Below, in pieces: positions 17,401-62,400 of a DNA stretch of 64,000 nucleotides. Source of the stretch: Bathymodiolus brooksi. Taxonomy: Eukaryota; Mollusca; Bivalvia; Mytilida; Modiolidae. The notes under the pieces were generated by a model. That model was not told where the DNA came from and searched no databases. It worked only from the letters and a program-made list of their open reading frames with translations. Both the position numbers and the translations under genes were made by a program. Every line of letters begins with the position of its first letter. The first letter of the stretch is position 1. The DNA lies in the NCBI GenBank assembly GCA_963680875.1, contig OY804582.1, forward strand, positions 55,136,646 to 55,200,645, read 5' to 3'.

Positions 17401-20400
17401 TTCAACATGAAAAAGAGGAGGTGGAGGAACATTTACTAATAATTTGTTTTGCTTTATATATTATTTCTATATTAAAAGTGATATGACCATCCAAGCATAC
17501 CTGTATGGGTGTGAAGGATAAGGTCATTCTTATAATGAGCCTGAGGCTCAGGAAGGGTAGTATTATATGGTATATTATTTTGCCATGATCAAACATGAAA
17601 GATGAGGATCACTCTTATGATGAATCTGAGGCTCAAGAAGGGGTATTATTATAAGGCATATTATTTTGCCACAAGCAAACATTACATGCACACCTTGCCA
17701 TCTCAAAATAAAATAATTGTCAGTTGAAATGTAATCCAGGTGACCCTAAGGTGACTGACTTGGGGTCATGACTTGACCTCATTGTTGTTCAGAGCAAAAT
17801 AATATGCTATGTAATATGTAATTCCCTGGAAAAGACGGGACATGATATCCTGATTCTGAGCTAATCAGTCTTTCCTCTAACTTTTTAATGATGATGTGTG
17901 CTTAGCGGAAATAGCAGCAATTGCCAATTTTATAGTATTTGGATTGATCTGATTGGCATCAAACCCACGATTTACCCTACTCGATGCAAGCATGTTTACC
18001 ATTACACTACTGAATTCGAAGTGGTTTGGAAAAGGGAATGTTCTCATTTATTTTCAAAGCACATCAACATATTAAGAAGATTAACATTAATTTTTCTGTG
18101 ATATAGACAAAATTATAATTTAGATTTTACCTTTTTCATGTGATGAAAATATAAATTAATTTGTACATTTATCATGTGATGCATATGAATAGATTTGTGG
18201 TTTTATCATGTGATGCATATAAATAGATTTGTAGTTTTATCATGTGATGCATATAAATAGATTTGTAGTTTTATCATGTGATGCATATAAATAGATTTGT
18301 AGTTTTATCATGTGATGCATATAAATAGATTTGTAGTTTTATCATGTGATGCATATAAATAGATTTGTAGTTTTATCATGTGATGCATATAAATAGATTT
18401 GTGGTTTTATCATGTGATGCATATAAATAGATTTGTGGTTTTATCATGTGATGCATATAAATAGATTTGTAGTTTTATCATGTGATGCATATAAATAGAT
18501 TTGTAGTTTTATCATGTGATGCAATAGATTTGTAGTTTTATCATGTGATGTATCATGTGATGTATTAATATTGCTTTTTTAAGATGCTGATAAAGAACCT
18601 CTCACAGAAGATGAAGAATCAAAATCAAAAGGTAACATTTTCTTAATAAAATGAAAAACAAAACCAAATCATCAGAACAGTTCTAGGGTTTAGGGTTATG
18701 GTGTCTAACGCCAATTTCAACAATATTTCAGTTATATCGTGACGATCAGTTTTATTGTTGGAGGAAACCGGAGAAACCCACAGACCTGCTGCAAGTCACT
18801 GACAAACTTTATCACATAATGTTGTATCGAGTACACGTCACCATGAATGGGATTCGAACATACAACTTGAGTGATGATAGGCACTGATTGCATTGGTAGT
18901 TAAAACTACCATATGATCACGATCACGGTGGCTCCTGATTTTTTGGGGGTTTTTTTTGTGATACACTAACATCTAACAACATCCTGTATGTGGTCCATAT
19001 CAGGTAATAATTCATTCATCTTTGACCATCCAATCATATGCAAGACAGTTAAATATATTGAACAGCTCTCAGCATGTGCTTGGGTTTTAATACCTCAATG
19101 TTTGGTAGGCTGGTTGCTTAAATGATCTGTAGAAAATATGACCCCTGATATTCCCCTATATGTGCTGTTGATAGATGTTAGAATATAACTAACTAAAGAT
19201 TCAACATATATTTAATTTTAAGTACATTTTGAAATTATTTTGAAATAATGGAACAGGAAATATTGTGCCTAAATTAAAATGCTTTTGAAAACCATAATTA
19301 TGTCAAATGTTTTTGGCAATTTTCTTTACATAGTAGATGAAACAATTACAGACGATAAATCAGAAGAAAAGGGGAAAGATGATACAATACAGGTATGTCC
19401 TGACCATTTGTAGGATTGCTTGCTGTAAGAATATTGTGTTGTAGTTGGAGTTCATTGTTTTGCTAATTCATAATACGCTATGCAATGTGACAATTTTCAT
19501 TTAAGTGTTATTTTCCCTCTCCCTAGGTTAAATGTGAATTAGAGAGATTTTCTCAGTTTATATGTAGCTGAGAATATTTGCTTAGAATTGATTGAAAATG
19601 TCAAAGACACTCTACTTTAATATAGACTAAATTTGTTTTAATGCATACTATTAATTATAGTGATTTTTTTCAATACTCGCTATGAATTTTGCTAGTTTGA
19701 TTCCCACCTGTTATGGTTTGGTTCATGGTGTTTAATGCCACTTTCAACAATATTTCAGTTATATTGTGGTTGTCAATTTTATTGATGGAGGAAATCGGAG
19801 AAAACCACCGACCTGTCGCAAGTCACTGATAAACTATATCACATAATGTTGTATCGAGTAAACATTCGCCTGAGCGGGATTTGAACTCACAATGTTAGTG
19901 GTGATGGGCACTGATTGCATAGGTAGTCATAAATCCAACTACCATACAATCATGACCACGATGCCCCCCCTCCCCCTTTCCCCCCACCTGTTATGAGGTG
20001 TATTGGTTAAAACTTATGTTATAAGTTATAATGTTTGTCAGTTACTTGCGACAGGGAGTTGGTCCTTTTTTCTTCAGGAACTCCAGTTTCATCAGCCAAT
20101 AAAACTGACCACCAAGGTATAGCTGTAATATTGTTGAAAGTGGCATCGGTAAATGCACATATCCCATAACACAAATGCAAATTTCTTTTTGTAATCATGT
20201 TAAGCTTTGAAGTAGATGATTCACTGTAGCTACGGTATATACACTTTCCTGTTTAAAATATTGAAAATGATAATAAGACTTTTGCTTTGATAGGAGCAGG
20301 TGTCAGAGATACCACCAGCACCTGTAGCAGAGCTAACGAAGATTACTACGGAGTATGAAGAAAGTAGTGACGATGAAGAATCAGAAGTTATAGATATTGC

Positions 20401-26400: not shown

Positions 26401-29400
26401 GATCATGGATTTTATTTTACTTTTACTCAGAGTAGTGTATATCTACTGTCTGATTTCATATTGCATAGCAATTGTAAGAAAATACAATTCACATATGATT
26501 TTTTTTAACATGAAAAACATTATGAGAATAAAGCTGGGATATTTTTATTAAGTTGTAAAGTTAACATGTAAATGTTTTTTGACTGGTTATTTTCATTTCT
26601 ACATTTTCAGCCACAGATCAATAATTTGTACAATTTCAACTACATGCTGAAAAGTTTATTATACATTCTAACATGAAGTCCTTCATTGACTGTATATAAA
26701 TAATGCTGTGATAAAATTCCCCATATATTTTAATTCGCAAATGCCTATTTTCGAACAAATTAATAACATCTAAGTGATTTCATGTATTCATACAGTACCG
26801 TGGTGCATACAAACATAAACAAACTCTTTTGATTTCTTTACAGTTTAATTTTCTTCCGGAAAAAATACTATAGACAACCATCTGTAGACTTTGACTTTTG
26901 TCATTCGTCATCTTCCGTTACATAGTTTACAAGAAACGCTAATGACATTGACACAAGATGGTTACTGATTTATTTTACGATTTTGTTTACCATTTACTTG
27001 TTTAAGTTGTTAAAATCAAAACACCATCAAATTCTAGCTGTACAATTTCAACTACAGACTAATAATTTGATCTTACATTTTCAGCTTCAGATTCAGCTAG
27101 TCGTCAATCTAGTCCATCTCCAGAAGTCAAGCATAAAAGAGAAATGTCAGACAGTGAAATATTCCCTGTATTTGTACCTCTGAGGTAAATATTCCCTGTA
27201 TTTGTACCTCTGAGGTAACTATTCCCTGTATTTGTACCTCTGAGGTAAATATTCCCTGTATTTGTATCTCTGAGGTAAATATTATTTGATCTTTCATTCT
27301 GATAATTAAGTAATCTCCCCCCCTTTTTTTTTTTTACCAAATAGCTTAGATTTTATAGGGTGGACATTGTGCACCCCCTTTTTTTTGTGAAAATTAAGGA
27401 AAAATATTGACAAATCTTGGTCTCCCCTCTATTTAGAGCCATAAAATGTAGACCCACCCTTTTCAAGAGACTTGAATCTACCTCTGCTTGATATGACATA
27501 TGACAATGTTTCTATTGGAATGAACATACATTTCTGTGTTTAGAAGTTTGAGGTTTGCCAGAGGAGTGGTTCTTATTGTTGTGATGGTTTTATTTTAGAA
27601 AGTACATAAATCTTACAGGGGAAAAAAAGGAATCATTTATAATTTACAGTCATGTGTAGATAGTCTCGTATTTTTCTTCTCCTAATATTGTCTTGAAATT
27701 TAAAGGTTGTCTATAGTTACTGTTTTACTTTTTATTTAAGGAATATTTGAAATTGTTGAATAGGTTATACGATATAAGCTGGCTTGGGTTAGTGTATGCT
27801 TAATAAACCGCAAAGCGGTTTATGAAAAGCGTAAACTTACCCAAACCAGGTTATTTATACAAGTATAACCTGTTCAACAATTTCAAATATTTCTTATAAT
27901 TTAATTTTTATAACAAAATTTAATGATTCCTCGTTTTAGTTACGATTATTTCATGTGACTATTTGAATTTGTCGTTTGCGGATGAACATGTTGGTGACGT
28001 CACAATACCAACCCAGGTTATCAAGTATAACCAATTAATTTTAATTAACAGATGTTCAAACTTTTTCACCTTTGATAATGTATATTATATAGTTGACTTT
28101 GTTCTACAGCAGCCATTAAACAAAATATAATTTAAACATTTTTAAAATGATAATAGATGTTTCCTGAAGTTACACAATAGATGAAACAGGTGCTTGCTGA
28201 CAAATAATTTTATTAAGATATTGAACACCAGTGTTTCATTTTAACATGCATTTATATTAGTTAATGTTTGTATGTTCTTTTTTTTAGGAGATCTCGTTCA
28301 GATCCAAACATGTATACTACAGATGATGACACCCTTTTGGTGCCCCAATCCTACAACATAGCAGTTGATGAGGTAAGTAGTTCTACTGGTACTGGTTTGA
28401 AAACTCTCTGTTCAGTCAAACCAGCCCATGCAGTCACCTGTATTAAAAGGTCACCTTTTTCTTGTCCTGTCATAGAAAATTTCATATGAATTGAACCTCT
28501 TTCAAGAGGTCACCTGTCATAAAAGGCCAATTTTCTTTTTCCCTAAGGTGACTGTAATAACATAAATCTTACAGCGAAAAAAAAAGAAGATTTTTTTATT
28601 ATAACTTATCTGGAATTAGTTCCTAAATAAATTAGGTAGTCATAATATAAAGCTTGAAATTGTTCAAAGACCAATAAATCAATCCAACACCTTACCTTTC
28701 ATTATGTTTTTGTATGTGAATTGATAAATAATGTCATTTTGATGAATTGTGCCATTATTAGCATAATTTGTGTCCATAGAAGAATTAGAGATACTTTTCT
28801 TTTTACATATGAAATTTGAAGTAGTAAGTATTTTATATGAAAAGTTTGATGATACCAAAAGGTTAATCAGAGGTCGTTAATCAGGACAGGCAACAAAAGG
28901 TTAATCAGAGATCAGAGGTAGTTAATCAGGACAGGCAACAAAAGGTTAATCAGAAGCCGTTAATCAGGACAGGCAACACAATCGTCAAAAGAAAAAAGAC
29001 AAACAATGATCTACAAAACACTACACAGAAAACTAAAGATCGTGCAACACGAACCCCACTAAAAACCAGGAGTGAAATCGGGTGCACCGAAAGGGTAGGC
29101 AGTTCCTGCTCCACGTGTGGCACCCGACATGTTACTCTTGTTACAAATGCAACGATAAGTCATGAATGAAGAAAGGACCAGATTCATAATTTAAGGATTT
29201 AGCACAAAATATTTTGTAAATAATAATTCAAATACTCTTTATAGATCAGTAGACAGAAGCAAAATATTAGAAAGATGAAAACCAAATGGAAAGATGAAGA
29301 AAGGAAAGCTAAGAAGGAGGAAGAAATGAGAGAAAGATTAATGAGGATGGTAAGTGATATAGGAAAGCTAAGAAGAAGAAAGAAATGAGAGAAAGATTAA

Positions 29401-32400
29401 TGAGGAATGTAAGTGATATAAGAAAGCAAAGAAGAAGGAAGAAATGAGAGAAAGATTAATGAGGATGGTAAGTGATAGAGGAAAGCAAAGAAGAAGGAAG
29501 AAATGAGAGAAAGATTAATGAGGATGGTAAGTGATAGAGGAAAGCAAAGAAGAAGGAAGAAATGAGAGAAAGATTAATGAGGATGGTAAGTGATAGAGGA
29601 AAGCAAAGAAGAAGGAAGAAATGAGAGAAAGATTAATGAGGATGGTAAGTGATAGAGGAAAGCAAAAAAGGACAAAGAAATGAGAGAAAGATTAATGAGG
29701 ATGGTAAGTGATATAGGAAAGCAAAAAAAGAGGAAGAAATGAGAGAAAGATTAATGAGGATGGTAAGTGCTATTTGGAATGTTCTTAATAAAGGTTACAC
29801 GATTATTAAAGAATACTATACAAATACAGCCTTTCTATGAAGTTGATACATGTTTATATCGACCTAAGAGATGTATATCGACCAAGGACGTAGTCCGAGG
29901 TCGATATACAACTTGTATCGACTGAATAGAAAGGCTGTGTTTTTTATATTATTAATTGATGATTTTACTGTCATTTGATTTGTTCAATGCCGATCACATA
30001 TTTTTTATATTATTAATTGCCATGCAAAACATGAAACAGAAAATCTACAAATGGATATTTAAATATTAAAATTTTCAAATTTTATGAAAACTGAAATTGT
30101 TGAATTTTTTTTTTTAAATATTGAAATCTTATGAAAATTTTGAATTTTTTGGGAAATTTTCAAATTTTATGAAAACTGAATTTTTTGGAAATTTTGAATT
30201 TTTTTGAAATTTGGAAATTTTGAACTTTAATTTATTTTTTTGAAATTTTAGAATTTTTTTTGGAAATTTTGGAAATTTTGAAATTTTATGAAAACTGAAT
30301 TTTTTTTAATTTTTTGGAAATTTTGAAAGTTTGAACTTTAAATTTATTTTTTGGAAATTTTAGAATTTTGAAATTATTTGAAAATTTTGAAATTTTATGA
30401 AATTTTTGAATACTGATAAATTGCCGTGCAATCCACAAAAGTCAACCTGCCAAAATACAGAACACCACGTGATGGGCATTGAACAAATCAAATGACCATA
30501 AAATTATCAATTAATAATATTTGTTCTTATATTTTAACATTTTATTCAGTTTTCAAGAAGCACAAAACATTAAAGTCTTGGTAAAGCCAAGGATAAAATT
30601 TTAAGGAAAATAATTTACCCATGTTAAAATCTACAATGAACTTATGGCTTCCATGTGTTTATTAAATTATTGTCATTTTGTCAGTTGGTTAAATATAAAG
30701 TAGTTTGCTAAATAAACGTACAATTACCTTTTTATTTGCAGCAAGAGGTACCTGAAGGAGAAAGATATGACCCTGAAAAAGTAATGGCTATACCTTCGTT
30801 TATGAAAAAGAAGAGTATGTACCTGTTTACTGTGGAATAGGAAAATATATATATATAATAGATGATTTTTTTTCATGTTATTTTTATTTGACATTGCAAC
30901 TATAAACATACATATAAATACATGAATTATTGAAAAAAAAATGTTTGCCATTAAAGATGTTCATGGGTGACACTGAGGGTTTAATCTTGCTGTTGAAATG
31001 GCCATTTAAGTCACCAAAATTTTAAGAATCATCTTTTTTTGCTGAAATGATGATTTGCCAGTGAGACAAAGACACCTTCAATTTTTTGTCAAAAGGGAGT
31101 AATTCTTATAAATGATATTTTTGCCCAAAAAGATCAGTCTTGTTTACTCCCGGTATGATATGATGACATGAATAGTTATTGTTATTGACTTCAAACATTA
31201 CTATTTTGTTTTCAAACATTTTACATCCATTTGATTTTTTTTCGTGCCTGTTAGTCATTATCTGAAATAAAAAATAAGATCCATATGAACAGAAAGTTTG
31301 TTCAGTGATGGCCACCAATTCCACCAATATCAACAAAACCTCTTACCTCTCACCGAACACAAAAAGACATGACATGTGATGTTGGAAATCCAGGATTTGG
31401 CTTGGGATAGGCACAAAAATGTGGCAGTGTTAAACTGGCTAATGGGATCCCAACCCTCCTAGAAATTACCTAGAAATATAGAGACTAACTTTTTTTTATC
31501 AGAATAGACAGGTGTTTAGATAATACAGGTTAAATTTCATGTTCAGTTTAAGCATATTTTCTCTTTATTCTAGGTTTGATTTAGACACTTTAAGTTTATG
31601 TGTATTTCTAAGTAATGTGACTATGATATTTTCAGCCAATGAACCGACTCCAGCAGAATTAGCTTTGGCAGCTGGTAGGGCTTATGTTATTCTTCCAAAA
31701 AAGTAAGTCATACACATGTACATCATAGTGTATATTGTAAAAAATAACATATTACTCATTAGTCAATGTCACTTAATTTCATAAAGTATATGTCAGAGAA
31801 TATTTTATTTTCTAGAGTATTCGATCAGCTGATATACTCGTACGATATTAGATTAAGTAGTGTTGACATCAGCATATCTTGTGATAAATATATGCTATCG
31901 TTGATTTGTTTTGCGAGAATGGATTTCTTTGAGTAATCTCGCATTGAAGGGTGTAGCCTGAGATGGGAGATGCAATGAGAAGTCCATTTTGAGCAAAGCA
32001 TATAAATGACAGCATGTTTATCGATGATTTGGTAAAGTGACGTCATTATAACGTCACATTAGAAAACAGTGATATTATGTAAATATCACGTTAGTTGCTC
32101 AATAATAGATCATTAGATGTTAATATCATGTGTAAAGATCAAAGAGAAATGTACAAATCATCGGTAAGATAATGTTAACAAAGAAAACAATACATGTACA
32201 TCTATTTCATAAATGTTTGACCATACACAGGCTGTAATTTTATTATGAATTTAAGATTTTTTTGTCCAGAAAATTTAGCTTAGAGTCTTCTTTTAGTGAA
32301 AATGTCTGTATTGACCTTCAAAACTACCGTTATTCTATATAAATTAATTTGTTTTTACATTGTGTTCATTTAATTTATAACTTCTTTTTTTTCTAAAGGA

Positions 32401-38400: not shown

Positions 38401-41400
38401 TGCTGTAAAAATCGATAAATCAAACAAAGGTTCAATACCCAAACACATGTAATTTCACCGCAGGAAAAAAAAAAGATTGCAAAAAGGTAAAATATCACAC
38501 GTCTGATAGCAAACATTTCTGAACAACAACACCAATGCACAAGTATGATTATTGACAAACATTGAGAATAAATACATATTTACAAACCTTTCAAAAAGGC
38601 AATGAACAAGCAATAAATACAATTTGCATACAATTTTATAAGATTGCGTTCTATGCGTACCAAAAAACGGTAACCAAAATCAGTTAAAGTTACTACAAGT
38701 TTTGTTTTTATTTTTTATCTGGGTGGTCGTGATCATGTGCTAGTTGGATTTACAACTACCTGTGCAATCAGTGCCTATCGCCACTAAATCTGTGAGTTCG
38801 AACCCTTTTCATGGCCAGGTGTACTCGATACAACATTATGTGGTAAAGTTTGTCAGTGACTTGCGACAGGTCGGTAGTTTTCTCCGGGTTCTCTTGTTTC
38901 CTCCGCCAATAAAACTGACCGCCACGATATTGCTGAAATATTGTTGTAAGTGGCACTAAAAACCATAAACCAAACCTATAATTTTTATCTTTTAAAGAAA
39001 AAATACAATCACATTTGTTATGGAATCTTCTCTTCTGTCAAATTTGTTGATGTTAGCAAAATTTATTTTTAAGTCAGTAAAGTTAAATTTGATGCATTTC
39101 AGTGCCTATCACCACTAATGTTGTGAGTTAGGTTCCTGCTCAGGCGAGATGTACTCTATACAACATTCTGTGATAAAGTTTATCAGTGACTTACGACAGG
39201 TCGGTTATTTTCTCCGGGTACTCCGGTTTCCTCTGCCAATGAAACTGACCGCCACGATATAGCTGAAGTATTGTTGAAAGTGGCATTAAACACCTTAACC
39301 CTAACCCCCTATTTTTAAGTCGGGAAAGTTAAATTTGCAGCATTTGATATATTGTTTAACAGAAAGGTAGAATTATATCCTAAGAAATGAAAAAGGAAAA
39401 GTACCTCAATGTTTCAAACTTGTTTTCCAGAATATTACTGATTTCTATTGAATTTTTCTTGTTGTAAATAATTTTGTTATCTCCCAAATAACCCTAAGTA
39501 TGTTCATATATATTACTGTGCTGCAATTAACAATATGGTGCTAATTGCAGCACAGTAAAAAAATATCATTGGTACAATGCAATATTGTTATTCTAACAGA
39601 TATTACATGAAGAAGTGGAGAAATTAAATGAAATGATTGAAGCTACACGTAAACCTAAAGCTTTTGATCTGTGTAGACGAGGAGCGCTATTAAGAAAACT
39701 TGGAATGGTGAAAAAGGCAGAAGAAGATCTAAACAGGTATATCAGTGTTCTAGATAAGTTTACAAGTAATTCTGTTTTTTACTTCCTTGTTTAGAAATCA
39801 GTTAGGTTGATTGATTGATTGATCGATTGATTATTGTTTAACATCCAGCGAGCAGTATATCAGCTATAATCAGGACAAGAACAAGTTCATTAACACATTT
39901 GTATATGTAAAAACCATATAGAAATGAAGGTTGGGATGGGACAACCGGATCAACAACTTTTGACTGACACCGAACAAGTATGGAGAGTTGTGTAGGGACG
40001 AAAAAATTAGTTTTATGTATCTGTTGCAATATGCACCTACTCTTTGTCGAAATCAACAAAAGAGGTATTTAACATGCAATGGAACATGGCATTCTCCAAA
40101 CGTATTACCCACTGTAGTCAACGGTCAGTCTTTCCATATTATAACCTGACAACCCTCGATCAAGAGGGTTCCCCTTATCCACCACCCGGGGAGTTGCTGA
40201 GCAGGTTTATAGATTTAAGGCGTGGGAACTTTCACCAGTACCCAGAAAATCAGTTAGGTATCTTGTATTTTTCTTTGAGTACATTGTATTTAAAACTCAA
40301 TACATGTATTTGTATATTATAATTTTAATTTGGTATTTCATTAATTTATTTTTAGTTCTGTGCTTGAGAGGATAAAAAAAAATCTTTTTATTTTAATGAT
40401 AAGAGATGAAATGTTTATTTTATTTCAGAGTTATACAAATGGAACCAGATTTAACAGATGCTTATTGGCACAGACATTTACTGTATTTATTACAAGATAA
40501 GAAAAAAGAAGCTCTCGGTGATCTCAACTTTATCATCAAGAAAAATAAGAAACATGCTGGAGCATGGAGATCAAGGTACAGTCATATTTAATTTTTTGTT
40601 GTGTACTTGTGCTCTAAAATTTATTTAAGGTGGTACCTAACACTACAGGGAGATAACTCTTTAAAATCAGTTGAATGTTTTGATCATATGACGTTTGTAT
40701 GCAGATTTCAAGCATCTCTGTGATCAAAACAACAGAGAGAAAAGCTGCTATGTGGCTAGTGAATTAATAGCTCTGAGTCTGTTGGTTGGAATTTGTTAAA
40801 ATTTTGATATTTATTAGAGTGGATATATTCAAACACACTGCCAAAAAAATAAGAAAATTAAACGAGCAGATCAAATTTAACCTGAATTGTATGGTACCAC
40901 CTTAAAGGAGCCTTGGTGGGCCGAGTGATCAAATGGGTTGTTAAGGTCATGATCGTATGGTAATTGGATTTACAACTACCTGTGCAATCGGTGCCTATCA
41001 CCACTAATGAAATGTTGTATCGAATCCAGCTCATGTGAGGTGTACTCGATACAACATTATGTGACAAAGTTTGTCAGTGACTTGCGGCAGGTCAGTGGTT
41101 TTCTCTGGGTCCTCCGGTTCCTCCACCAATAAAACTGACTGCCACGATATAACTGAAATATTGTTGAAAATGGCGATAAATATCATAAACCTAAACCTAT
41201 AAAACCTGTCACTGATGTGGGTTCATAGACTGATACCCACATTAAGTGTTATTGTTTCCAGGCATATAACCATGGCTGGTGGTTTCACCTCTTAGTTAGT
41301 TATAACTGGTTTTCCAATCTTGATCATGCCTGATAAAGGTTATTCCAGAAACATGTTGTACGCCCCAAATTTAATACCTACATTAATAAATCTGGAATGA

Positions 41401-44400
41401 AATTGTAGATATCGAATTTAGTGTGCATGATGTGTGTAATAAGTCTGGGTTAAAAATGTAGATATCAAATTTAGTGTGCACGATGTGTGTAATGAGTCTG
41501 GGTTAAAAATGTAGATATCAAATTTAGTGTGCACGATGTGTGTAATAAGTCTGGGTTAAAAATGTAGATATCAAATTTAGTGTGCACGATGTGTGTAATA
41601 AGTCTGGGTTAAAAATGTAGATATCAAATTTAGTGTGCACGATGTGTGTAATAAGTCTGGGTTAAAAATGTAGATATCAAATTTAGTGTGCACGATGTGT
41701 GTAATAAGTCTGGGTTAAAAATGTAGATATCAAATTTAGTGTGCACGATGTGTGTAATAAGGCTGGGTTAAAAATGTAGATATCAAATTTAGTGTGCACG
41801 ATGTGTGTAATAAGTCTGGGTTAAAAATGTAGATATCAAATTTAATTCATTGTCTTTGGGAGCAAGTAAACCAAAAAGCCGAAACAAGATAAGCCAAAAT
41901 CGTTAGTTTGATGATTAATCTGGTATATCTCAAAATTTGCAAACTTTTTATGATTTTAGAGCAGAGATATACAGACTACAAAACAATGTTGAAGAAGCTA
42001 TAATGAACTACAGACAAGCCATTATCTTAAACCCTAGAGACCATGAAGCTTATTTCAGGAGAGCAGAAATGTATGAAAAGGTAATCTATAAATAGACAAT
42101 TATAGTCGTCAAAATGAAAATTTGAATTTACTGGTCGGAATCAAATTCTTGAATTTATTTTTATATAGTTCTAAATAAAAACTGAAAAATGTACTGATCC
42201 GAACAAAGTTTTACTGGCCGTGGGCAGGAGGACTGGTGCTCATCGTGAGGACTGCAATTACAATGTATTTATTTACAGCATAGATCAAATTTTAAATATT
42301 TTGCATTATTAATGATTAAAATCTTTTGAGATCCCACCTGTCTTGAAAGACCACAATTTTGCACATGTCAGATGTGGCTTCAGAGTATTAACAATCTATA
42401 TTTTCAGACATATTTTTTATTTCTATATTTTAGAAAGGAGACAGTCATTTACTTGCTTTAGAAGATTATTCCAAGTGCATAAAGATAAACCCTTTGAGGA
42501 CAGATGCCATATTAAAACATGGATTATACTATTTCAAGAATGAGTATGCCATTGCTTAATGTTTTACTTTTAATGTATTATATGATTAACAACACTTCTT
42601 TTTATGTATTTCTTGGGTTTATATTATGCAGATGAAATACATTTAACATTAAATTTCTGTCACAATATGTTTAGTACAATTAAAGATTGTCAGATAATAG
42701 TTACAAATTTTCCATTAATTTATAGAGATTTGATTGGTTACATTTTCTAGCAAGGCTTCTTATGGTTATTTCCATTTGTTGTTTTCAACTCCAATTTGAG
42801 TTCATTATTTTTGTCGGATTTGTTCCCCTAATCAGTGACATTTTCTTTTTTTTGTAGCCATGTCCTTTAATACTTAATGATTTTTACAAAGAAATTGGAA
42901 ACAGACAACTGTACGTGTTTAATTATTATAATCTGGGTTAACTTATCTTTACCCTTTAATGGGCCTCAAGTCACGTACCAATCGATAACGTCAGACGACA
43001 ATTTATTTGTGTACACATGCCTGTCAGTTTCTTAATGACTTCATATTAAATAATACATGTGGAAGCATGATAATATATTGATCAAGAAGATCAAAGTGGT
43101 GGGTAAGACAAGATTAATTAAGTATAATTAATAACACTGGGACCGGAAAACATTGTTGAAGGTTAGAAATGGCAGGTTTCCGAATACACAAGGTTTTTAA
43201 TCGTGGGACCAGAAAGTTTTGCTGTGTGTTAAAGGATGTCGGAATACTCGAGTGTCGTATTGCACAAGTTCCACAGTACTGATTAATTTGATAAAAATAT
43301 TTTTGTAGGAGTTGGCACAATGCTATATCAGATTTTACAGACCTATTAAGGGTAGACCCTTTGAATGTAACCGCTAGGATTTACAGAGGCCAAGCTAATG
43401 CTAAGATGCAACAATGGACTCCTGCAGTGGAGGACCTGTCTGCGGCTATACATTTGGATCCCATGAGTTGGGAGGCTTTCTACCATAGGGCTTGTATTTT
43501 GAGAAAGTAAGATTTTATATATAAATAATTAAGTACAAATGTACATTCTCATATGAAGGTCAAAGCGATCAACATAACATCAAATAACATAGAGTTTTGA
43601 ATTCATCCTCAATACAAGATATTAATCTGTAATGAACTGCCTACCCAACCAGAGAACCTGATTTTCACCCACATTTTTTATTGTGGGGTTATTTTTATGT
43701 GTAGTGTTTTCTTGAACTTTGTTTGTCTTTTGCTCATTTTATTATCTGTCCTTTGATTTATGACTTTTGATTACCCCTGTGGTATATTCAAACTTGACTT
43801 TAGGTTATTTAGAAAATGACATGTCTGAATTAGAGATAATAATAATTCAAATATAAAAAGGCTCTTTTTAAGTAAAAATGTAAATATTATGGATGTTTAA
43901 CTCCATTTTCAAGAATATTTTAGTTTGATGAAAATTAAATATTCTATCGCACACAATACATCAACAACTGTATACAACCTTAAACATGGGGAAATGTTTT
44001 AGCTATTGTTGCTCTTAAGAGAAATTATCATCTTTTAAGTTATAGTTCTCATCTACAGAGGGCCTTGTAATGTGACCCCTATTATATCTCATAAGTAATT
44101 ATGTTCATTTAACTTGCAGAGCTCACCCCAAAGAGGGCCTTGTGTGACCCCTATTGGATTTCACAAAAAATTATTATCATTTATTTATCTTACAGAGCTC
44201 ACCCGAAGAGGGCCTTACATGACTACAGCGTGTCCTTGTTAATTAATGATTCAGATGACAACTGTATGTCATATCTACACAGAGGAATACTGTACAATGC
44301 TATGCATAGGTGAGTTTTGTATCAGTATCATAGCTCGAGCACGATTTTATTAAGTTTGAATTCTAAGAATTAAAACGAAAACCTACATTATCAAAGTATG

Positions 44401-47400
44401 TAATGTATATTAAAAAAATTAATTTGATGTGAGTGTTAATGTGAGTTTTGTAAGAAATGATATCAGTATCATAGTTTGGACATAATTTTATTGTGGTTTG
44501 AATTCTGGATTTGGTGTATGGTGTTTAACGCCACTTTCTACAATATTTCAGTTATATCGTGGTGGTTAGTTTTGATTGTGGGGGGAACCCAGAGAAAACC
44601 ACCGACCTGTCGCAAGTCACTGACAAACTTTATCACATAATGTTGTATCGTGGTTTGAATTCTGATAGTTAAATCAAAACCTACGTTATCACAGTACGTA
44701 ATGTATATTTGAACAAATTATTTTGACTAGGTGAGTTTTGTAAGAAACTGATATCTGTGTTGTAGTTCGAGCATGATTTTATTGGATTTAAATTCTGAGA
44801 AGTAAATAAAAACCTACGTTATCAAAGTATGTAATGTATATTAAAAAAAAAACCATTTGACTATATCATAATAATACTTATAAAAGCAATAAAGAATTTC
44901 TGGTGCTTACTTTCAACAATTTTTCACTTAGATTGTGGCTGTTAATTTAATCTATGGAGAAAACCACCTATCTGTTGCAAGTCACTGATAAACTTTATCA
45001 CACAAAGTTGTATCGAGTGCACCTCGCCATTAGCGGGAGTCAGACTCGCAACATTAGTGGAGATAGGCACTGATGGCACCATCTGAAACTTTAAAGGAAT
45101 AATATATGGATTTTATTGCTAAATTAAGATTCCTCATTTGAAGAAATTTAGTATATCAAATGGTTGAAATCCAGATTTAATGAGATATTCATTTATAAAA
45201 CAAACAAAAAAATATTGAACCATTCAAACAAAAACAATGTCAGAATTTATCCACAAATTTATATCAACAGGTAAAATCTGTTGAACAATATTTGTGTCAA
45301 GGATGCTGTATTTGACTAAAAACTAAGTCAAGAAATTTAAACAACTGTGTGTATTTAAATTTTCAGGTATGAAGATGCCATTCCAGACTTTGAGAGTGTA
45401 TTGAAATTAAGAAAAGATGTTGCTGGTGCCCATGTTAACCTAGGACTGATCTTTATGAACCATTATGAAAATTATCACAGGTACATTGACGACCTTTAAC
45501 CTACTTTATGAAAATTATCACAGGTACATTGATGACCTTTAACCTACTTTATGAAAATTGTCACAGGTACATTGACGACCTTTAACCTACTTTTTGTGAT
45601 TTTTACATATTAAAGATTGTCTCATAGGACAGTATTGTCTTACTAAATGCAAAATTCTGTATAGACAGAAGTCAAAACAATCATTTTCTGTATGTATAAA
45701 CAATAGATATTTTGTATAACAGATATAAAACACTTAATAAACAATAGATATTTTGTATAACAGATATAAAACACTTAATAAACAATAGATATTTTGTATA
45801 ACAGATATAAAACACTTAATAAACAATAGATATTTTGTATAACAGATATATATTTTCAGTATATTGATTTAAATATCAGTTTGACATTGTTTATTTGTAA
45901 ATTATTTTTGACGATTGATTTCATTATAATCATATATTTATTTCTCCTACATCTATGGTGTAATCGTTAGAGTGCTTGCCTCAAGAGCAGTAGATCGTCG
46001 GTTCGAGCCCCGATCAGGTTAAACCAAAGACTATTAAATTGGCTTTTGTTGCTCATCCGCTAAGCATGCAGCATTAAGGAGAAAGAGCAAAAACTGGTTG
46101 GCTCGGAATCAGGATGTGTCAGAGTGGGGCGACATGTCAACCCACAGACTGTTACATGTTGGTCTAGTACAAAGGGGAACTCATCATCATCTCATTGAAA
46201 ATTAACTTCTTCTCGCCATGATATAGCTGAAAAATTGCTGTGTTGGCATTAAACAACAATCACTTACTCACTCACTTCTTCATTCATTATTAGTAACACA
46301 TTATTTAGCAAAAAGTTTTGTTTAATTAAGAAAATTATTATGTTTTTTTCTTTAACATTAATCACAAACATTTAATTTTACTTTTAGAGCAATTAAGAAA
46401 TTTTCTGCAGCAATTAAAGTGGATCCTACATATGTAAGAGCTTATGTGTGCAGAGGGGAAGCCTATCACAAAATACATGAAGTAAGTTTTAATACTTATT
46501 ATCATGGTACACATAAAGATCAATATATGTGTGTTAAGAGTATCGCTTATTAGCTCAATCGCATCAGTGGTGTAATGGTTAGCGTGCTCACCTCGGGTGC
46601 GATAGATTATGGATTCAAGCCCTGATCGGGTCAAGCCAAGGACTATAAAATTAATATTTGTTGCTTCTCCGCTAAGCACACAGCATTAAGGAGAAAGAGC
46701 AAAGACTTCTTGGCTCGGAATCAAGATAATGTGTCCGAGTGGGTCGACATGTCTATCCGAGGACTGTTGTTTCAGCGAGCTAGCACTTTAAGCGTGTTGG
46801 TCTAGTACAAAGTGGACCACACCGTCATCTCATTGGAAATTAACTTGTTCTTGCCATGATATAGCTGAAAATTTGCTGAGTTGGCATTAAACAACAATCA
46901 CTCACTTATTCAATATGCGGTTTTTAGTTTATTCATTTTCATTAATTGACTATAATGTGTAAGTAAAAAAAATGATGACAATCAATTTCACTTTATTTAT
47001 GAGTATTTTGACATGTAAGAATTTGTGTTTGTAATTGAAGAAGAAGGAGGCTACACATAGGGAGCTTCCGGTAGTATGTTGACTGATTTCCTCTATATCT
47101 AACAGTTTCAGAGATAAAGTCAAGCGGAAGGGGCCAACAAAAGCGAATCCAAAAATTTCATCCAATTTTAATGCATTTTTTTTTGTAGTGAATTTTTAAC
47201 TTGAGTACTGTAAGACCAGTACCCAAGTTTGAAGAAATTTAGGTTTAAAAAATCCAATCTGGATGCTAAAACACAAATAGTACAGGTATAAAAATATCAC
47301 ATGAACTCAACGAGAATTCAATTTGTAAGAAAAGAATCTTTTAAATTGGTTTCTTTTCACCATAACACAATATCGTTTTTGTTTAGGAAAATAATTTTAT

Positions 47401-53400: not shown

Positions 53401-56400
53401 TACAGTAGTGGATTGCAATATTATTCATACAACAAAAATTACAAACATCAGCAGATTGTATCTATATATATATATATGGTGTGATCTTTTCATGATTTAC
53501 CTTATTTTTTTAGAAGGAGTACTTCTACTTTAGCAGACCCTAGCCTTAACCCTTTTGTTGTCATATCCGCATGGTAACAAAATGAAAGGTTATGGCTCAT
53601 GCGTGTTGATTATTACAATATCTGACTTCCAAGGTCCGCCAAAGTAGATTCTACTCTTTTTTTTTTAATGAAAATTCATTTGAATTGTTATAATTTTGAA
53701 AATAGAAAAATAATAACTAAGCTAAGAATTAGTGACTACAACTTACTGATTGAAAAGAGAAGTCATATGTCCACTATATTTGATACTGCTACTATAATCG
53801 TGAACAAAGGTCTTCTTTTTTTTTTTAGATGTTTATGAGTTTTTTTTATCATATGATCCACTAACACTTAAGAATATCTAAGGATTTTGTAGGCTTGTCA
53901 TTGATTGGTCAGTTGAAATTTGACCTCTGACCTATCTGAATGTTGTTAGATGTCAGTGGATTTGCTAGATATAAACAAAATTATAACATGTCACAAACAT
54001 ATTAATTACATGTAACATGTTTCTTACATTCTTACAAAAAATATTTTTTAGACATGCCGCAGATTTGAGTACAGATTCATCATTAGGACAAATGCCTACA
54101 CAACAAGCTGTGGTACAGTCCTTCCTGAAGAACTATGATAAGGTTAGTGTTCTCATTTTCCGAATTGGTGTATAATGAAACACATGCCCAAAGAAATCTT
54201 ACTGCATCTATTTATAGATTCCTGATACATTCCTGATACATAACTTTAGGTTATGATTATTTTGAGGGGAAAATGTTTATTCTGAATACTTATGAGTTTG
54301 AAAGCAAAGTTACCACTTTTTAGCCAATTTGTGTTATTTTTGCTTAAGGTCATGAGGCAGCCTGGTTGGCCGATAGGTTAAAGGTTGTTGACTTCTAAAC
54401 ACAGACATGTATTTTCTCCCTGATACCCTCTTCAAGTGCTAAGGTGTCCAAATACCTACTCTGATGGTTGCTGAATTTCTTCTACCTCTGCAGGAATTCC
54501 TCTCCAAATAAGTGTGTTAGTTATGGTATAGGTGGGAAAATTGTTAAAATTGGTGATAAACACCTTTAACCCACCACCCACCTCCCCTTCTCGCCAAAGG
54601 AGTGAGGGAATGAGTAAGTGTTGTTTAGTGCCATATGAGGAGTTTATCAGCTATATCACAGCAAGGATAAGTTACATTCGATGTGATGATGATGATAATG
54701 TCCGCTTTGTACTAGACCAACATGCTTAGTTGAATTATTATATTGCTAGTTCACTGAAACAACAGTCCGTGGGTAGACATGTAGCTCCACTTGAACACTA
54801 TCCTGATTCTGAGCTGACCAGTCTTTGCTCTTACTCCTTAATGCTGCGTGCTTAGCGGAGTAGGAATATTCTCTGGTTGGATCTAAATAAAATAGCAAAG
54901 CATAATATGATTGAAAATTTGTCCCATTGATAAAACAAAGTGGGGGAAGGGGGGAGGTGTTATGGTGTGTAGCACCACTTTCAACAGTATTGCAGTTGTA
55001 TTGTGGCGGTCAGTTTTATTGTATAGAGTAAACCAGAGAAAACCACCAACCTGCCCCAAGTCACTGACAAACTTTATCACATAATGTTGTATTGAGTACA
55101 CCTCGCCATGAGCGGCCGGATTCGACCTCACAACTTTTGTGGTTATAGGCACTGATTGCATAGGTAGTTGTAAATGCAACTACCATATGATCACGACCAG
55201 TTGTATCTATTTTATAGGCTATTGATGCCTTAGAAGCTGCCACTAAAGTTCTATCTATTTTATAGGCTATAGATGCCTTAGAAGCTGCCACTAAAGTTCT
55301 ATCTATTTTATAGGCTATTGATGCCTTAGAAGCTGCCACTAAAGTTCTATCTATTTTATAGGCTATTGATGCCTTAGAAGCTGCCACTAAAGTTCTATCT
55401 ATTTTATAGGCTATTGATGCCTTAGAAGCTGCCACTAAAGTTCTATCTATTTTATAGGCTATAGTTGCCTTAGAAGCTGCCACTAAAGTTCTACCTATTT
55501 TATAGGCTATTGATGCCTTAGAAGCTGCCACTAAAGTTCTATCTATTTTATAGGCTATTGATGCCTTAGAAGCTGCCACTAAAGTTCTATCTATTTTATA
55601 GGCTATAGATGCCTTAGAAGCTGCCACTAAAGTTCTATCTATTTTATTGGCTATTGATGCCTTAGAAGCTGCCACTAAAGTTCTATCTATTTTATAGGCT
55701 ATTGATGCCTTAGAAGCTGCCACTAAAGTTCTATCTATTTTATAGGCTATTGATGCCTTAGAAGCTGCCACTAAAGTTCTATCTATTTTATAGATTATAG
55801 ATGCCTTAGAAACTGCCACTAAAGTTCTATCTATTTTATAGGCTATTGATGCCTTAGAAGCTGCCACTAAAGTTCTATCTATTTTATAGGCTATTGATGC
55901 CTTAGAAGCTGCCACTAAAGTTCTATCTATTTTATAGGCTATTGATGTCTTAGAAGCTGCCACTAAAGTTCTATCTATTTTATAGGCTATTGATGCCTTA
56001 GAAGCTGCCACTAAAGTTCTATCTATTTTATAGGCTATTGATGCCTTAGAAGCTGCCACTAAAGTTCTATCTATTTTATAGGCTATTGATGCCTTAGAAG
56101 CTGCCACTAAAGTTCTATCTATTTTAGAGGCTATTGATGCCTTAGAAGCTGCCACTAAAGTTCTATCTATTTTAGAGTCTATAGATGCCTTAGAAGCTGC
56201 CACTAAAGTTCTATCTATTTTATAGGCTATAGATGCCTTAGAAGCTGCCACTAAAGTTCTATCTATTTTATAGGCTATTGATGCCTTAGAAGCTGCCACT
56301 AAAGTTCTATCTATTTTATTGGCTATTGATGCCTTAGAAGCTGCCACTAAAGTTCTATCTATTTTATAGGCTATTGATGCCTTAGAAGCTGCCACTAAAG

Positions 56401-59400
56401 TTCTATCTATTTTATAGGCTATTGATGCCTTAGAAGCTGCCACTAAAGTTCTATCTATTTTATAGGCTATAGATGCCTTAGAAGCTGCCACTAAAGTTCT
56501 ATCTATTTTATTGGCTATAGATGCCTTAGAAGCTGCCACTAAAGTTCTATCTATTTTATAGGCTATTGATGCCTTAGAAGCTGCAACTAAAGTTCTATCT
56601 ATTTTATAGGCTATTGATGCCTTAGAAGCTGCCACTAAAGTTCTATCTATTTTATAGGCTATTGATGCCTTAGAAGCTGCCACTAAAGTTCTATCTATTT
56701 TATAGGCTATTGATGCCTTAGAAGCTGCCACTAAAGTTCTATCTATTTTATTGGCTATTGATGCCTTAGAAGCTGCCACTAAAGTTCTATCTATTTTATT
56801 GGCTATAGATGCCTTAGAAGCTGCCACTAAAGTTCTATCTATTTTATAGGCTATAGATGCCTTAGAAGCTGCCACTAAAGTTCTATCTATTTTATAGGCT
56901 ATAGATGCCTTAGAAGCTGCCACTAAAGTTCTATCTATTTTATAAGCTATTGATGCCTTAGAAGCTGCCACTAAAGTTCTATCTATTTTATAGGCTATTG
57001 ATGCCTTAGAAGCTGCCACTAAATTTCTATCTATTTTAGAGGCTATTGATGCCTTAGAAGCTGCCACTAAAGTTCTATCTATTTTAGAGGCTATAGATGC
57101 CTTAGAAGCTGCCACTAAAGTTCTATCTATTTTATAGTCTATAGATGCCTTAGAAGCTGCCACTAAAGTTCTATCTATTTTATAGGCTATTGATGCCTTA
57201 GAAGCTGCCACTAAAGTTCTATCTATTTTATAGGCTATTGATGTCTTAGAAGCTGCCACTAAAGTTCTATCTATTTTATAGGCTATTGATGCCTTAGAAG
57301 CTGCCACTAAAGTTCTATCTATTTTAGAGGCTATTGATGCCTTAGAAGCTGCCACTAAAGTTCTATCTATTTTATAGGCTATTGATGCCTTAGAAGCTGC
57401 CACTAAAGTTCTATCTATTTTATAGGCTATTGATGCCTTAGAAGCTGCCACTAAAGTTCTATCTATTTTATAGGCTATATATGCCTTAGAAGCTGCCACT
57501 AAAGTTCTATCTATTTTATAGGCTATTGATGCCTTAGAAGCTGCCACTAAAGTTCTATCTATTTTATAGGCTATTGATGCCTTAGAAGCTGCCACTAAAG
57601 TTCTATCTATTTTATAGGCTATTGATGCCTTAGAAGCTGCCACTAAAGTTCTATCTATTTTATAGGCTATTGATGCCTTAGAAGCTGCCACTAAAGTTCT
57701 ATCTATTTTATAGGCTATTGATGCCTTAGAAGCTGCCACTAAAGTTCTATCTATTTTATAGGCTATTGATGCCTTAGAAGCTGCCACTAAAGTTCTATCT
57801 ATTTAATAGGCTATTGATGCCTTAGAAGCTGCCACTAAAGTTCTATCTATTTTATAGGCTATATATGCCTTAGAAGCTGCCACTAAAGTTCTATCTATTT
57901 TATAGGCTATTGATGCCTTAGAAGCTGCCACTAAAGTTCTATCTATTTTATAGGCTATTGATGCCTTAGAAGCTGCCACTAAAGTTCTATCTATTTTATA
58001 GGCTATAGATGCCTTAGAAGCTGCCACTAAAGTTCTATCTATTTTATAGGCTATTGATGCCTTAGAAGCTGCCACTAAAGTTCTATCTATTTTATAGGCT
58101 ATTGGTGCCTTAGAAGCTGCCACTAAAGTTCTATCTATTTTATAGGCTATTGATGCCTTAGAAGCTGCCACTAAAGTTCTATCTATTTTATAGGCTATTG
58201 ATGCCTTAGAAGCTGCCACTAAAGTTCTATCTATTTTATAGATTATAGATGCCTTAGAAACTGCCACTAAAGTTCTATCTATTTTATAGGCTATTGATGC
58301 CTTAGAAGCTGCCACTAAAGTTCTATCTATTTTATAGGCTATTGATGCCTTAGAAGCTGCCACTAAAGTTCTATCTATTTTATAGGCTATTGATGTCTTA
58401 GAAGCTGCCACTAAAGTTCTATCTATTTTATAGGCTATAGATGCCTTAGAAGCTGCCACTAAAGTTCTATCTATTTTATAGGCTATTGATGCCTTAGAAG
58501 TTGCCACTAAAGTTCTATCTATTTTATAGGCTATTGATGCCTTAGAAGCTGCCACTAAAGTTCTATCTATTTTAGAGGCTATAGATGCCTTAGAAGCTGC
58601 CACTAAAGTTCTATCTATTTTATAGGCTATAGATGCCTTAGAAGCTGCCACTAAAGTTCTATCTATTTTATATGCTATTGATGCCTTAGAAGCTGCCACT
58701 AAAGTTCTATCTATTTTATAGGCTATTGATGCCTTAGAAGCTGCCACTAAAGTTCTATCTATTTTATAGGCTATTGATGCCTTAGAAGCTGCCACTAAAG
58801 TTCTATCTATTTTATAGGCTATTGATGCCTTAGAAGCTGCCACTAAAGTTCTATCTATTTTATAGGCTATTGATGCCTTAGAAGCTGCCACTAAAGTTCT
58901 ATCTATTTTATAGGCTATTGATGCCTTAGAATCTGCCACTAAAGTTCTATCTATTTTATAGGCTATTGATGCCTTAGAAGCTGCCACTAAAGTTCTATCT
59001 ATTTTATAGGCTATTGATGCCTTAGAAGCTGCCACTAAAGTTCTATCTATTTTATAGGCTATTGATGCCTTAGAAGCTGCCACTAAAGTTCTATCTATTT
59101 TATAGGCTATTGATGCCTTAGAAGCTGCCACTAAAGTTCTATCTATTTTAGAGGCTATAGATGCCTTAGAAGCTGCCACTAAAGTTCTATCTATTTTATA
59201 GGCTATTGATGCCTTAGAAGCTGCCACTAAAGTTCTATCTATTTTAAAGGCTATTGATGCCTTAGAAGCTGCCACTAAAGTTCTATCTATTTTATAGGCT
59301 ATATATGCCTTAGAAGCTGCCACTAAAGTTCTATCTATTTTATAGGCTATTGATGCCTTAGAAGCTGCCACTAAAGTTCTATCTATTTTATAGGCTATTG

Positions 59401-62400
59401 ATGCCTTAGAAGCTGCCACTAAAGTTCTATCTATTTTATAGGCTATTGATGCCTTAGAAGCTGCCACTAAAGTTCTATCTATTTTATAGGCTATTGATGC
59501 CTTAGAAGCTGCCACTAGAGTCCAGCCTGTACCTTCTATGTTTATGCTACTGGGTAAAACACAGATGAAAGCTAAGGAGTTTACTAATGCCATTGGAAGT
59601 TTCAACAAAGCACTAGAACTTTTTGTAAGTATATAATCAATGTGTGGAAAGGAACCTAGTAAGTTAATATAACTTGTGTCCTATCCAGTTGTTGAAATGT
59701 TTAGCAATACAATATGTTTAATCTAATGTGTAACTGCTGTATTTTGTGTAAAAATATGTGATAATATTAGTTTACACTGTAACAATTTAAGATGAGGGAT
59801 TGTTATTAAGATTTTAAACAATATATGTTGGGTATTTTTTATTTAGATATTTCTGTTGAGTTTTTTTTTTTGTGGGGGGATTCACAATGACACCACTGCA
59901 AAAGGCAGTGATGGCAGTAAGGTACAATTGAAGCATAACACACATTAAGAAGAGTTTGAAGATACCAAAGGGGCAATCAAATCCGTAAATCAAGCTTGTG
60001 TTAATGGAAGAGTCCATTTTATCATCAGGGAATTTTGTAAGATGTGGACTCTAAGACGGATATTATGACCCAAATTTTATTGTTCACTGACTTCATTTCT
60101 TTTTGACATATTTTGTATATGTACACTTAAGCTTCAGGATAACGTTTAGAGTTTAGGTTCTTTTTGTAGTAGTATCTATTGATTCATTGGGACATTTTAT
60201 GAAACGGAAGAAACATGTTTGTAGAATTCATGTTGAAAATTTTTGCAGTGACCTATATTTCATAGTTCATTGGCTCCAATCAACTTTGTGTTAATTTTTA
60301 TACATTACGGGTAATACTTCATCAGGAAATCTTCAAGCTAAGATTCTTCTTTGTATAAGTCTTAATGATATGATCATTAAACATTGTGAAAAGGAAGATA
60401 TGTGCTGCCACTATGTATGTGTATTGTGTGTGTATTTCACCATGTATGTGTGTTTTTTGTATATTTCACCATATATGTGTGTTTTGTGTATATTTTACCA
60501 TGTATGTCAGGGTTCCCACACATCCGGAAAAACCCGGCAAGTTTATTTCAAGTGTTCCCGACCGGGAAACGCTCTTGAAAATCGAGAAAATGGCAAAAAC
60601 CGGGAGAAACCCTTGAAATTTATCTACTGTAGGTCATTAGATAATATTGAATTACTCCCCTTTGATCATTGTTCTTTCGTATTTTTACAACTTCAGACCA
60701 GCAAGTTCTGCGGCGTATCATTCGTTTGATAGATATGGGAACGAATGACTTTGGGACGAGTATTGTAAGGGCGAAACTGATCATGAATTCTGTTCCATAT
60801 GCACGTTTGTAAGATAAGGACGCTGCTTCAGACCCCTTTCTAAAGTCAAGAAAACTGCCAAGTTTTTGGTGAAATCACCCTCGAAAATAAAATAAAAATC
60901 CTGGAAAAACCTTGGAATTTTATGTTGAGAGCTGTGTGGGAACCCTAGTATGTATCTATTGTGTATATTTCACCCTGTATCATTTATATAATACATTCTA
61001 GGGCAAGCTGTTTAGAACGGTAAGGAATGAAATGTATCATATATTTGCATATTATACATCTTTTCTATCAGGTTTATCCATTGTTGCATGAAATGACACG
61101 CTTCATTTTCAGATTATATTTGAATTAGTATATTATTACGCAAATGCACATGATTGGGTATAAAGACAGTACGTAGAAGTTTAGTTATCTCCCTGTATTT
61201 AATGTAGAATTCAGGTTATGGGTTTAAGGCATAATTTATTTGAAAAATATGGTACAGAGTTTAGAAATTGCACCTACTTATGGTAAAAGGCATAGGGACA
61301 ATATCTGTTGCCATAATTTACATTTCAGCACAGTTTTAAATTGTGGTGACAGTGACATCTGGCATTATGAAATTAATATTTTAAAACATATATTATGAAA
61401 AGAAAGTTTAAACAGTGATGGTCATCAATTCCACCAATATCAACAAAACGAACAATTACTTCTCATACATGATTATCAACATACAAAGATTTGTCTAATT
61501 ATATGGAAATAGAAATTTGGTTCCAGAGTTACGCAAAATATATGAAGTTTTCTCACTTGCTCTGGTCCCAAGCTAGTATCCCTTTTAGAATGTAGCATTA
61601 TGGACAAGAAGAGAAGACCCTCTCCTGCTCTCCCCCCCCCCCCCCCCCTATGAAAAACCCTGTCGTCAGCTGTTACGATTTGTCAATATTGTCAATAATA
61701 AAAAGCTACATGTAAAACAATGTACCAGCCATTGCTTTCATCTAACTTAAACCTCTATTTTTTATGTCATATATTTGTAAAGTTGCATTTTGATTGGATA
61801 AACTCTTGCTTCGTTTGCACAATAACAAACTCAAACTTTTCTCTTATTTATTCAATTTCTGTCTTCAATGAAAAAAAATTGCTAGAGATGATATGTATAA
61901 AATTTTGATTCTGCATGTGGAGTTATTATTGAAATAGTCTACCTACAATATACAGTTGTGGCACAAAGACTGGTGGACTCTGAATCAGGATAATGTGTCC
62001 GAGTGGGGCGACATGTCTATCCTTGGACTGTTGTTTCAGTGAGCCAGAACTATAAAAAATCCAACCTAGCGTGTTCGTCTAGTACAAAGTGGACCTCATC
62101 ATCATCTCATTGAAAATTAATTTTTTCTCGCCATGATATAGCTGAAAAATTTTTATAACATAGATGCCATTGTACTGAGCTTTTTGTCAAATTTTTCACA
62201 TGTACTCGCTTTCTAATCAAGTCTCATTAATTAATCCCCACTATGATGTACTATCCTGCAATATATTTTACTCATCAAGAAGAGAACCCTTAATAAGGAT
62301 TTTATTTTAATGGTTGATACATGTATTTAGTTAGATAGTTTTTACCGATACAAGTATTTAGTTAGATAGTTTTTACCCTTTTTATTACAATGTACCTACA

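Follow-up and report, generated by a model that had tools for sequence, protein, structure and literature searches.

Within the window, i.e., the whole stretch of 64,000 nucleotides that was analysed, lies a gene that, judged by homology, is TTC6, and in this gene a 48-bp unit carrying a 3' splice site is repeated in tandem, with 89 decoy acceptors ahead of the true one. We consider it likely that this is a minisatellite of the mirage type in an intact gene, that its decoys are mostly silent, and that exon definition selects copy 90. The array and the exons around it are as follows.

54052..54142, plus strand: exon before the array; ends in phase 0 with ..FLKNYDK, followed by gttagt
55199..59521, plus strand: 48-bp tandem array with 90 exon starts (89 decoy acceptors and the true one), by TRF and register count
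59490..59624, plus strand: exon after the array, 135 nt; starts in phase 0; donor gtaagt at 59625
61002..61019, plus strand: 18-nt microexon GKLFRT, the next exon after 59490-59624; tag before, gtaagg after

TRF reported the array at 55199-59521 with a period of 48, 90.1 copies, 97% matches and 0% indels. In our own count, exon starts fall at 55218 + 48k, with k running from 0 to 89, and the last of them is 59490. Both results bear out an earlier note on this DNA, which had described 90 copies in a row without length change; its division of the unit into 31 nt of exon and 17 nt of intron is close to ours, in which the exon contributes approximately 28-32 nt and the end of the intron 16-20 nt. 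The consensus is matched exactly by 48 of the 89 full units, 19 unit types are present, and the mean pairwise difference between units is 1.18 per 48 bp (2.46%). An AG is kept in 82/89 decoys and a TAG in 74/89, whilst copies 10, 24, 28, 33, 34, 37, and 73 (7/89) have no preceding AG; the reading AGAG occurs at seven decoys. Like the lancelet mirages, the array is a head-to-tail tandem repeat of a short unit, this unit runs across an exon-intron boundary (acceptor 59490 of a homologue-supported exon), and the splice dinucleotides are kept in many copies, with AG in 82/89 decoys here and GT in all listed copies of the donor arrays described below.

The absence of indels is true, yet not strong evidence for a frame constraint: if indels are assumed to arise at 0.08-0.16 of the rate of substitutions, the chance of seeing none alongside 20 distinct substitution types is 4-20%, and it is lower if 40 events are counted. 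Of these types, five affect the TAG, which makes up 3 of the 48 sites (binomial P = 0.007, for a comparison chosen post hoc). Selection against decoys was not adopted as an explanation, since the seven sites that have lost the AG are not concentrated around the true site, and the loss of a single decoy out of 89 could hardly be under selection. A higher-order structure of the array was also discarded: the best offset, 12 units, gives 5 matches, which is merely the 95% level of shuffled arrays (5.0). By eye, a short direct repeat, AGT, is present at both array edges and would be compatible with slippage or microhomology when the array arose. The minus strand is open through the array (55061-57802, 913 codons; 57803-59680, 625 codons; one M each), and these frames probably just reflect the unit length of 48 bp.

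The exon model on the plus strand has consistent phases and encodes a TPR protein, with no stop in the 596 aa and 512 aa of its joined exons. The TPR part (512 aa) is 91% identical over 100% of its length to P0002, TTC6 of Mytilus edulis, and 72% identical over 99% to P0003, a TTC6-like protein of Mya arenaria, the next named mollusc after M. edulis. Homology to annotated TTC6 proteins thus extends along the TPR region, and these identities make the host a probable mytilid. Its identity to an unnamed protein, P0001, is 98%. The contig that encodes P0001 (1226 aa) is 4048 bases long; the protein matches TPR families in a Pfam scan and could be aligned to 20 exons of the window, from 29275 to 63768. 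Because this contig is far too short for an intron-rich gene, the 20 exons align and the microexon GKLFRT is present, P0001 must be a spliced product of a close relative. The same microexon is not found in the annotated M. edulis protein. P0001 need not come from the species of the host, since an N-terminal search gave 95% identity over 29% of the query; its source label, 'lgn', presumably stands for assembly from public read archives. The array may be absent from the genome that encodes P0001.

In this model, 59490 opens exon 36 of the 38 listed, where the earlier note had exon 38; the model may lack exons, and the five placed before 10601 are without homologue support. The coding sequence of exon 59490-59624 is intact and 100% identical to P0001, and the junction between exon 54052-54142 and 59490 is gap-free in 115 of the 119 matched homologues (120 proteins compared). 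The intron before this exon measures 5347 nt and the one after it 1377 nt.

All 89 upstream copies, the AG-less ones included, lead to a premature stop, which is reached after 14 codons in one copy, 15 in 74, 31 in 11, and 47 in three. When the AG two bases upstream is taken at the seven AGAG decoys, a stop follows within five codons in all seven. The earlier claim that every upstream acceptor runs into a TAG after 15 codons therefore stands as regards premature termination, whereas the distance applies to 74/89 only. Likewise, the statement that correct splicing needs the last of the 90 sites is right for in-frame inclusion of the exon, given the stops from 89/89 decoys and the seamless junction in homologues, but it overlooked exon skipping, and it made no mention of the four smaller splice-site arrays of this gene described below. 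Two outcomes keep the frame: splicing to copy 90, or omission of the whole 135-nt exon. A mytilid protein ending in decoy sequence was not seen among the five matches with E <= 1e-120 (7999 candidates scored), a search that weighs little.

How could the last of so many similar sites be selected? Over positions -20 to +3, 68/89 decoys are identical to the true acceptor, and 28/89 are identical from -50 to +28. Since these 28 match the true site over the whole interval, local sequence cannot choose the acceptor, and the choice must, as far as sequence comparison tells, come from position or from the exon body. Copy 90 differs in that it continues into the exon body beyond +28 and lies near the donor at 59625. 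Each unit has a pyrimidine tract of its own, and by eye a branch-point-like CACTAAA lies ~20 nt before the AG, inside the exon part of the preceding copy. The donor at 59625 has a non-consensus TTT on its exon side, which weighs against selection of copy 90 through this donor.

A published survey of splice-site choice reported that sites nearest across the exon are preferred when flanking introns exceed about 250 nt, and that the upstream one of two identical strong donors was used exclusively in five minigenes (PMC9225289). Its abstract states the across-exon rule for both types of site; for acceptors, it reported an overall upstream preference that was reduced, not reversed, for long introns (PMC9225289). 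We propose that tandem duplication of a short segment spanning the intron-exon boundary was followed by amplification, presumably via unequal exchange, until 90 copies were present. Exon 59490-59624 would be recognised across the exon, with U1 at donor 59625 pairing with the nearest upstream acceptor, that of copy 90, and the other 89 copies would be removed with the intron. Copy 90 would then be the acceptor mainly used in the host, the decoys would probably be mostly silent, and the array itself would presumably be without function. Exon definition does not preclude leakage, some of which is to be expected because splicing to copies 88 and 89 would yield exons as short as 231 and 183 nt. Under the same rule, the first copy would be selected in each of three arrays of donors and the last copy in a second array of acceptors, all in TTC6:

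27157..27283, plus strand: 30-bp array, four copies of the donor of exon 27085-27184; first copy coding; junction gap-free in 5/6 matched homologues
29302..29769, plus strand: 59-bp array, eight copies of the donor of exon 29245-29349; first copy coding; gap-free in 1/2 matched homologues (P0001)
44023..44216, plus strand: array of about 75 bp, three copies of the acceptor of exon 44196-44309; last copy coding; gap-free in 120/120 homologues
45463..45593, plus strand: 43-bp array, three copies of the donor of exon 45367-45480; first copy coding; gap-free in 119/120 homologues

The second homologue at the junction of exon 29245-29349 is that of M. edulis, which is one residue short there. Use of any non-coding copy in these four smaller arrays leads to stops, and in all five arrays the coding copy adjoins the exon body. 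The exons concerned are 100-135 nt long, and the introns on either side of them span 688-5347 nt. The outcome in all five arrays is the one expected from cross-exon proximity under exon definition as described in the survey (PMC9225289), an agreement that is partly forced because only such arrays leave the protein intact. A frame rule common to the arrays is ruled out by their units of 48, 30, about 75, 59, and 43 bp.

Whether repeats occur at splice boundaries in excess depends on the null model. The 35 TRF rows of the window were merged by hand into 20 loci and compared with the 38 exons, i.e., 76 boundaries, of the model; five of the 20 loci span a boundary. When one unit per locus was placed at random, the mean was 0.91 and P(>=5) was 0.001, and with two units these values were 1.82 and 0.029. 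Placement of whole loci gave a mean of 4.1 and P(>=5) = 0.38, or 3.2 and 0.20 when the large array counted as one unit. As a point control, 1400 points were drawn at random outside the large array and searched for a nearby direct repeat over 24 bases. Matches of at least 19, 20, and 21 of 24 were found at 5.6, 4.9, and 3.9% of the points vs. 5/76 boundaries (6.6%), and matches of 22, 23, and 24 at 2.9, 1.9, and 1.4% vs. 4, 4, and 3 of the 76. As some of the nulls (P from 0.001 to 0.38) speak for an excess and others do not, an excess is not claimed. The window was, moreover, chosen because of the array, and the five exons before 10601 entered the count without homologue support.

Several other repeats are present in the window. 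A 34-bp array of about 13 copies (18121-18565) stops 18 bases short of the predicted exon 18584-18631 and may shape the end of the adjoining intron. A 53-bp array of 8.7 copies (41384-41844) is wholly intronic and ends 115 bases before exon 41960-42080. Two similar stretches, at 45950-46270 and 46550-46910, look by eye like dispersed copies of a tRNA-derived SINE, and a stop-free stretch of 389 codons on the minus strand (711-1880) looks LINE-like by eye, without a significant Pfam family. Scans of the window for tRNAs (ARAGORN) and against Rfam found nothing.

Other readings of the 48-bp array have to be weighed against silent decoys. A large share of the transcripts might be spliced to decoys, run into the in-frame TAG and be lost to nonsense-mediated decay, so that TTC6 output is lowered. 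This is unlikely in our view, but it deserves serious consideration: 82/89 decoys keep their AG, each of the 89 leads to a premature stop, and the overall upstream preference for acceptors in the survey (PMC9225289) points the same way. Against it, RT-PCR suggested that regular splicing is undisturbed by lancelet mirages (PMC3087553; PMC3902484), and the protein search described above, weak as it is, revealed no decoy-ended relative. We consider improbable an extension of such leakage in which copy number would act as a heritable, mutable rheostat, more units giving more decoy splicing and decay, with the TTC6 dose varying between individuals and perhaps between cells of one animal. The length-variable regulator suggested in the earlier note finds no support in this sequence. 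Selection of the first acceptor, at 55218, would turn the haplotype into something close to a null allele. Such a choice is what the classical across-intron proximity rule described in PMC9225289 would predict, and the first copy is intact; nevertheless, it is highly improbable, as the introns are of the long type for which the across-exon rule was reported to hold and the joined exons show no coding decay, although a recent expansion would leave none.

The exon could instead be largely skipped, which would cost 45 residues of the TPR region whilst the frame survives, 135 being a multiple of three and both introns being in phase 0. Weak competing sites, in the form of weakened donors, led to skipping in the larger minigenes of the survey (PMC9225289). 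Since the exon is present in P0001, conserved in homologues and intact in its coding sequence, without a single difference from P0001, predominant skipping is improbable. Finally, the copy number, or the array itself, might be an artefact of assembly. Arrays of this kind pose difficulties for assembly, one amphioxus mirage was reportedly misassembled in the draft genome (PMC3087553), and a block of six units is shared by units 11-16 and 62-67, 51 units apart. However, the 19 unit types follow one another in aperiodic order, the window contains no N, and TTC6 has four more arrays of the same type; an artefact is therefore very improbable. Silent decoys and selection of copy 90 by exon definition remain the reading that we favor.

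The 90 locally near-identical acceptors, spread over 4.3 kb, separate two rules, as across-intron proximity predicts copy 1 and across-exon proximity copy 90, and the earlier description of the array as a natural test of acceptor choice is fair. For acceptors, the upstream bias in the published survey was only reduced under exon definition (PMC9225289), a point on which splicing of this array would bear directly. The five arrays in one gene further suggest that animals other than lancelets tolerate splice-site duplication by minisatellites, and that such duplication is perhaps common in them.

Among known repeats, a VNTR of the human ABCA7 gene is said to affect splicing (PMC5954066). Such a repeat likewise perhaps bears on splicing, but it is intronic by the title of that paper, whereas the TTC6 unit includes an acceptor and coding sequence. 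An intronic minisatellite has been described in an abalone TSSK1-like gene, and a splice-site minisatellite in a bivalve was not found in an open-access library of papers. Tandem arrays and duplicated AG/GT sites have been reported as sources of introns (Rogers, 1989; Zhuo, 2007; Gao and Lynch, 2009; as cited in PMC3087553). There, too, tandemly duplicated segments carry splice signals, but the TTC6 intron is only lengthened and no new intron position is seen.

The closest counterparts are the mirages of lancelets, which are known in Adh3 and in the globin genes BflGb6 and BflGb9 (PMC3087553). They are located at 5' or 3' boundaries, keep many splice signals and vary in length (PMC3087553; PMC3902484). 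As in the TTC6 arrays, the repeat unit lies across an exon boundary, most signals are kept and the authentic exon adjoins the array. On this structural likeness, the TTC6 arrays are of a known kind. They differ in copy number, with 90 units of 48 bp here vs. three and six copies of 150-160 bp in BflGb6, and in that five arrays are present in one gene of a mytilid-like mollusc. What is new here is the scale, both in copy number and in arrays per gene, and the host group.
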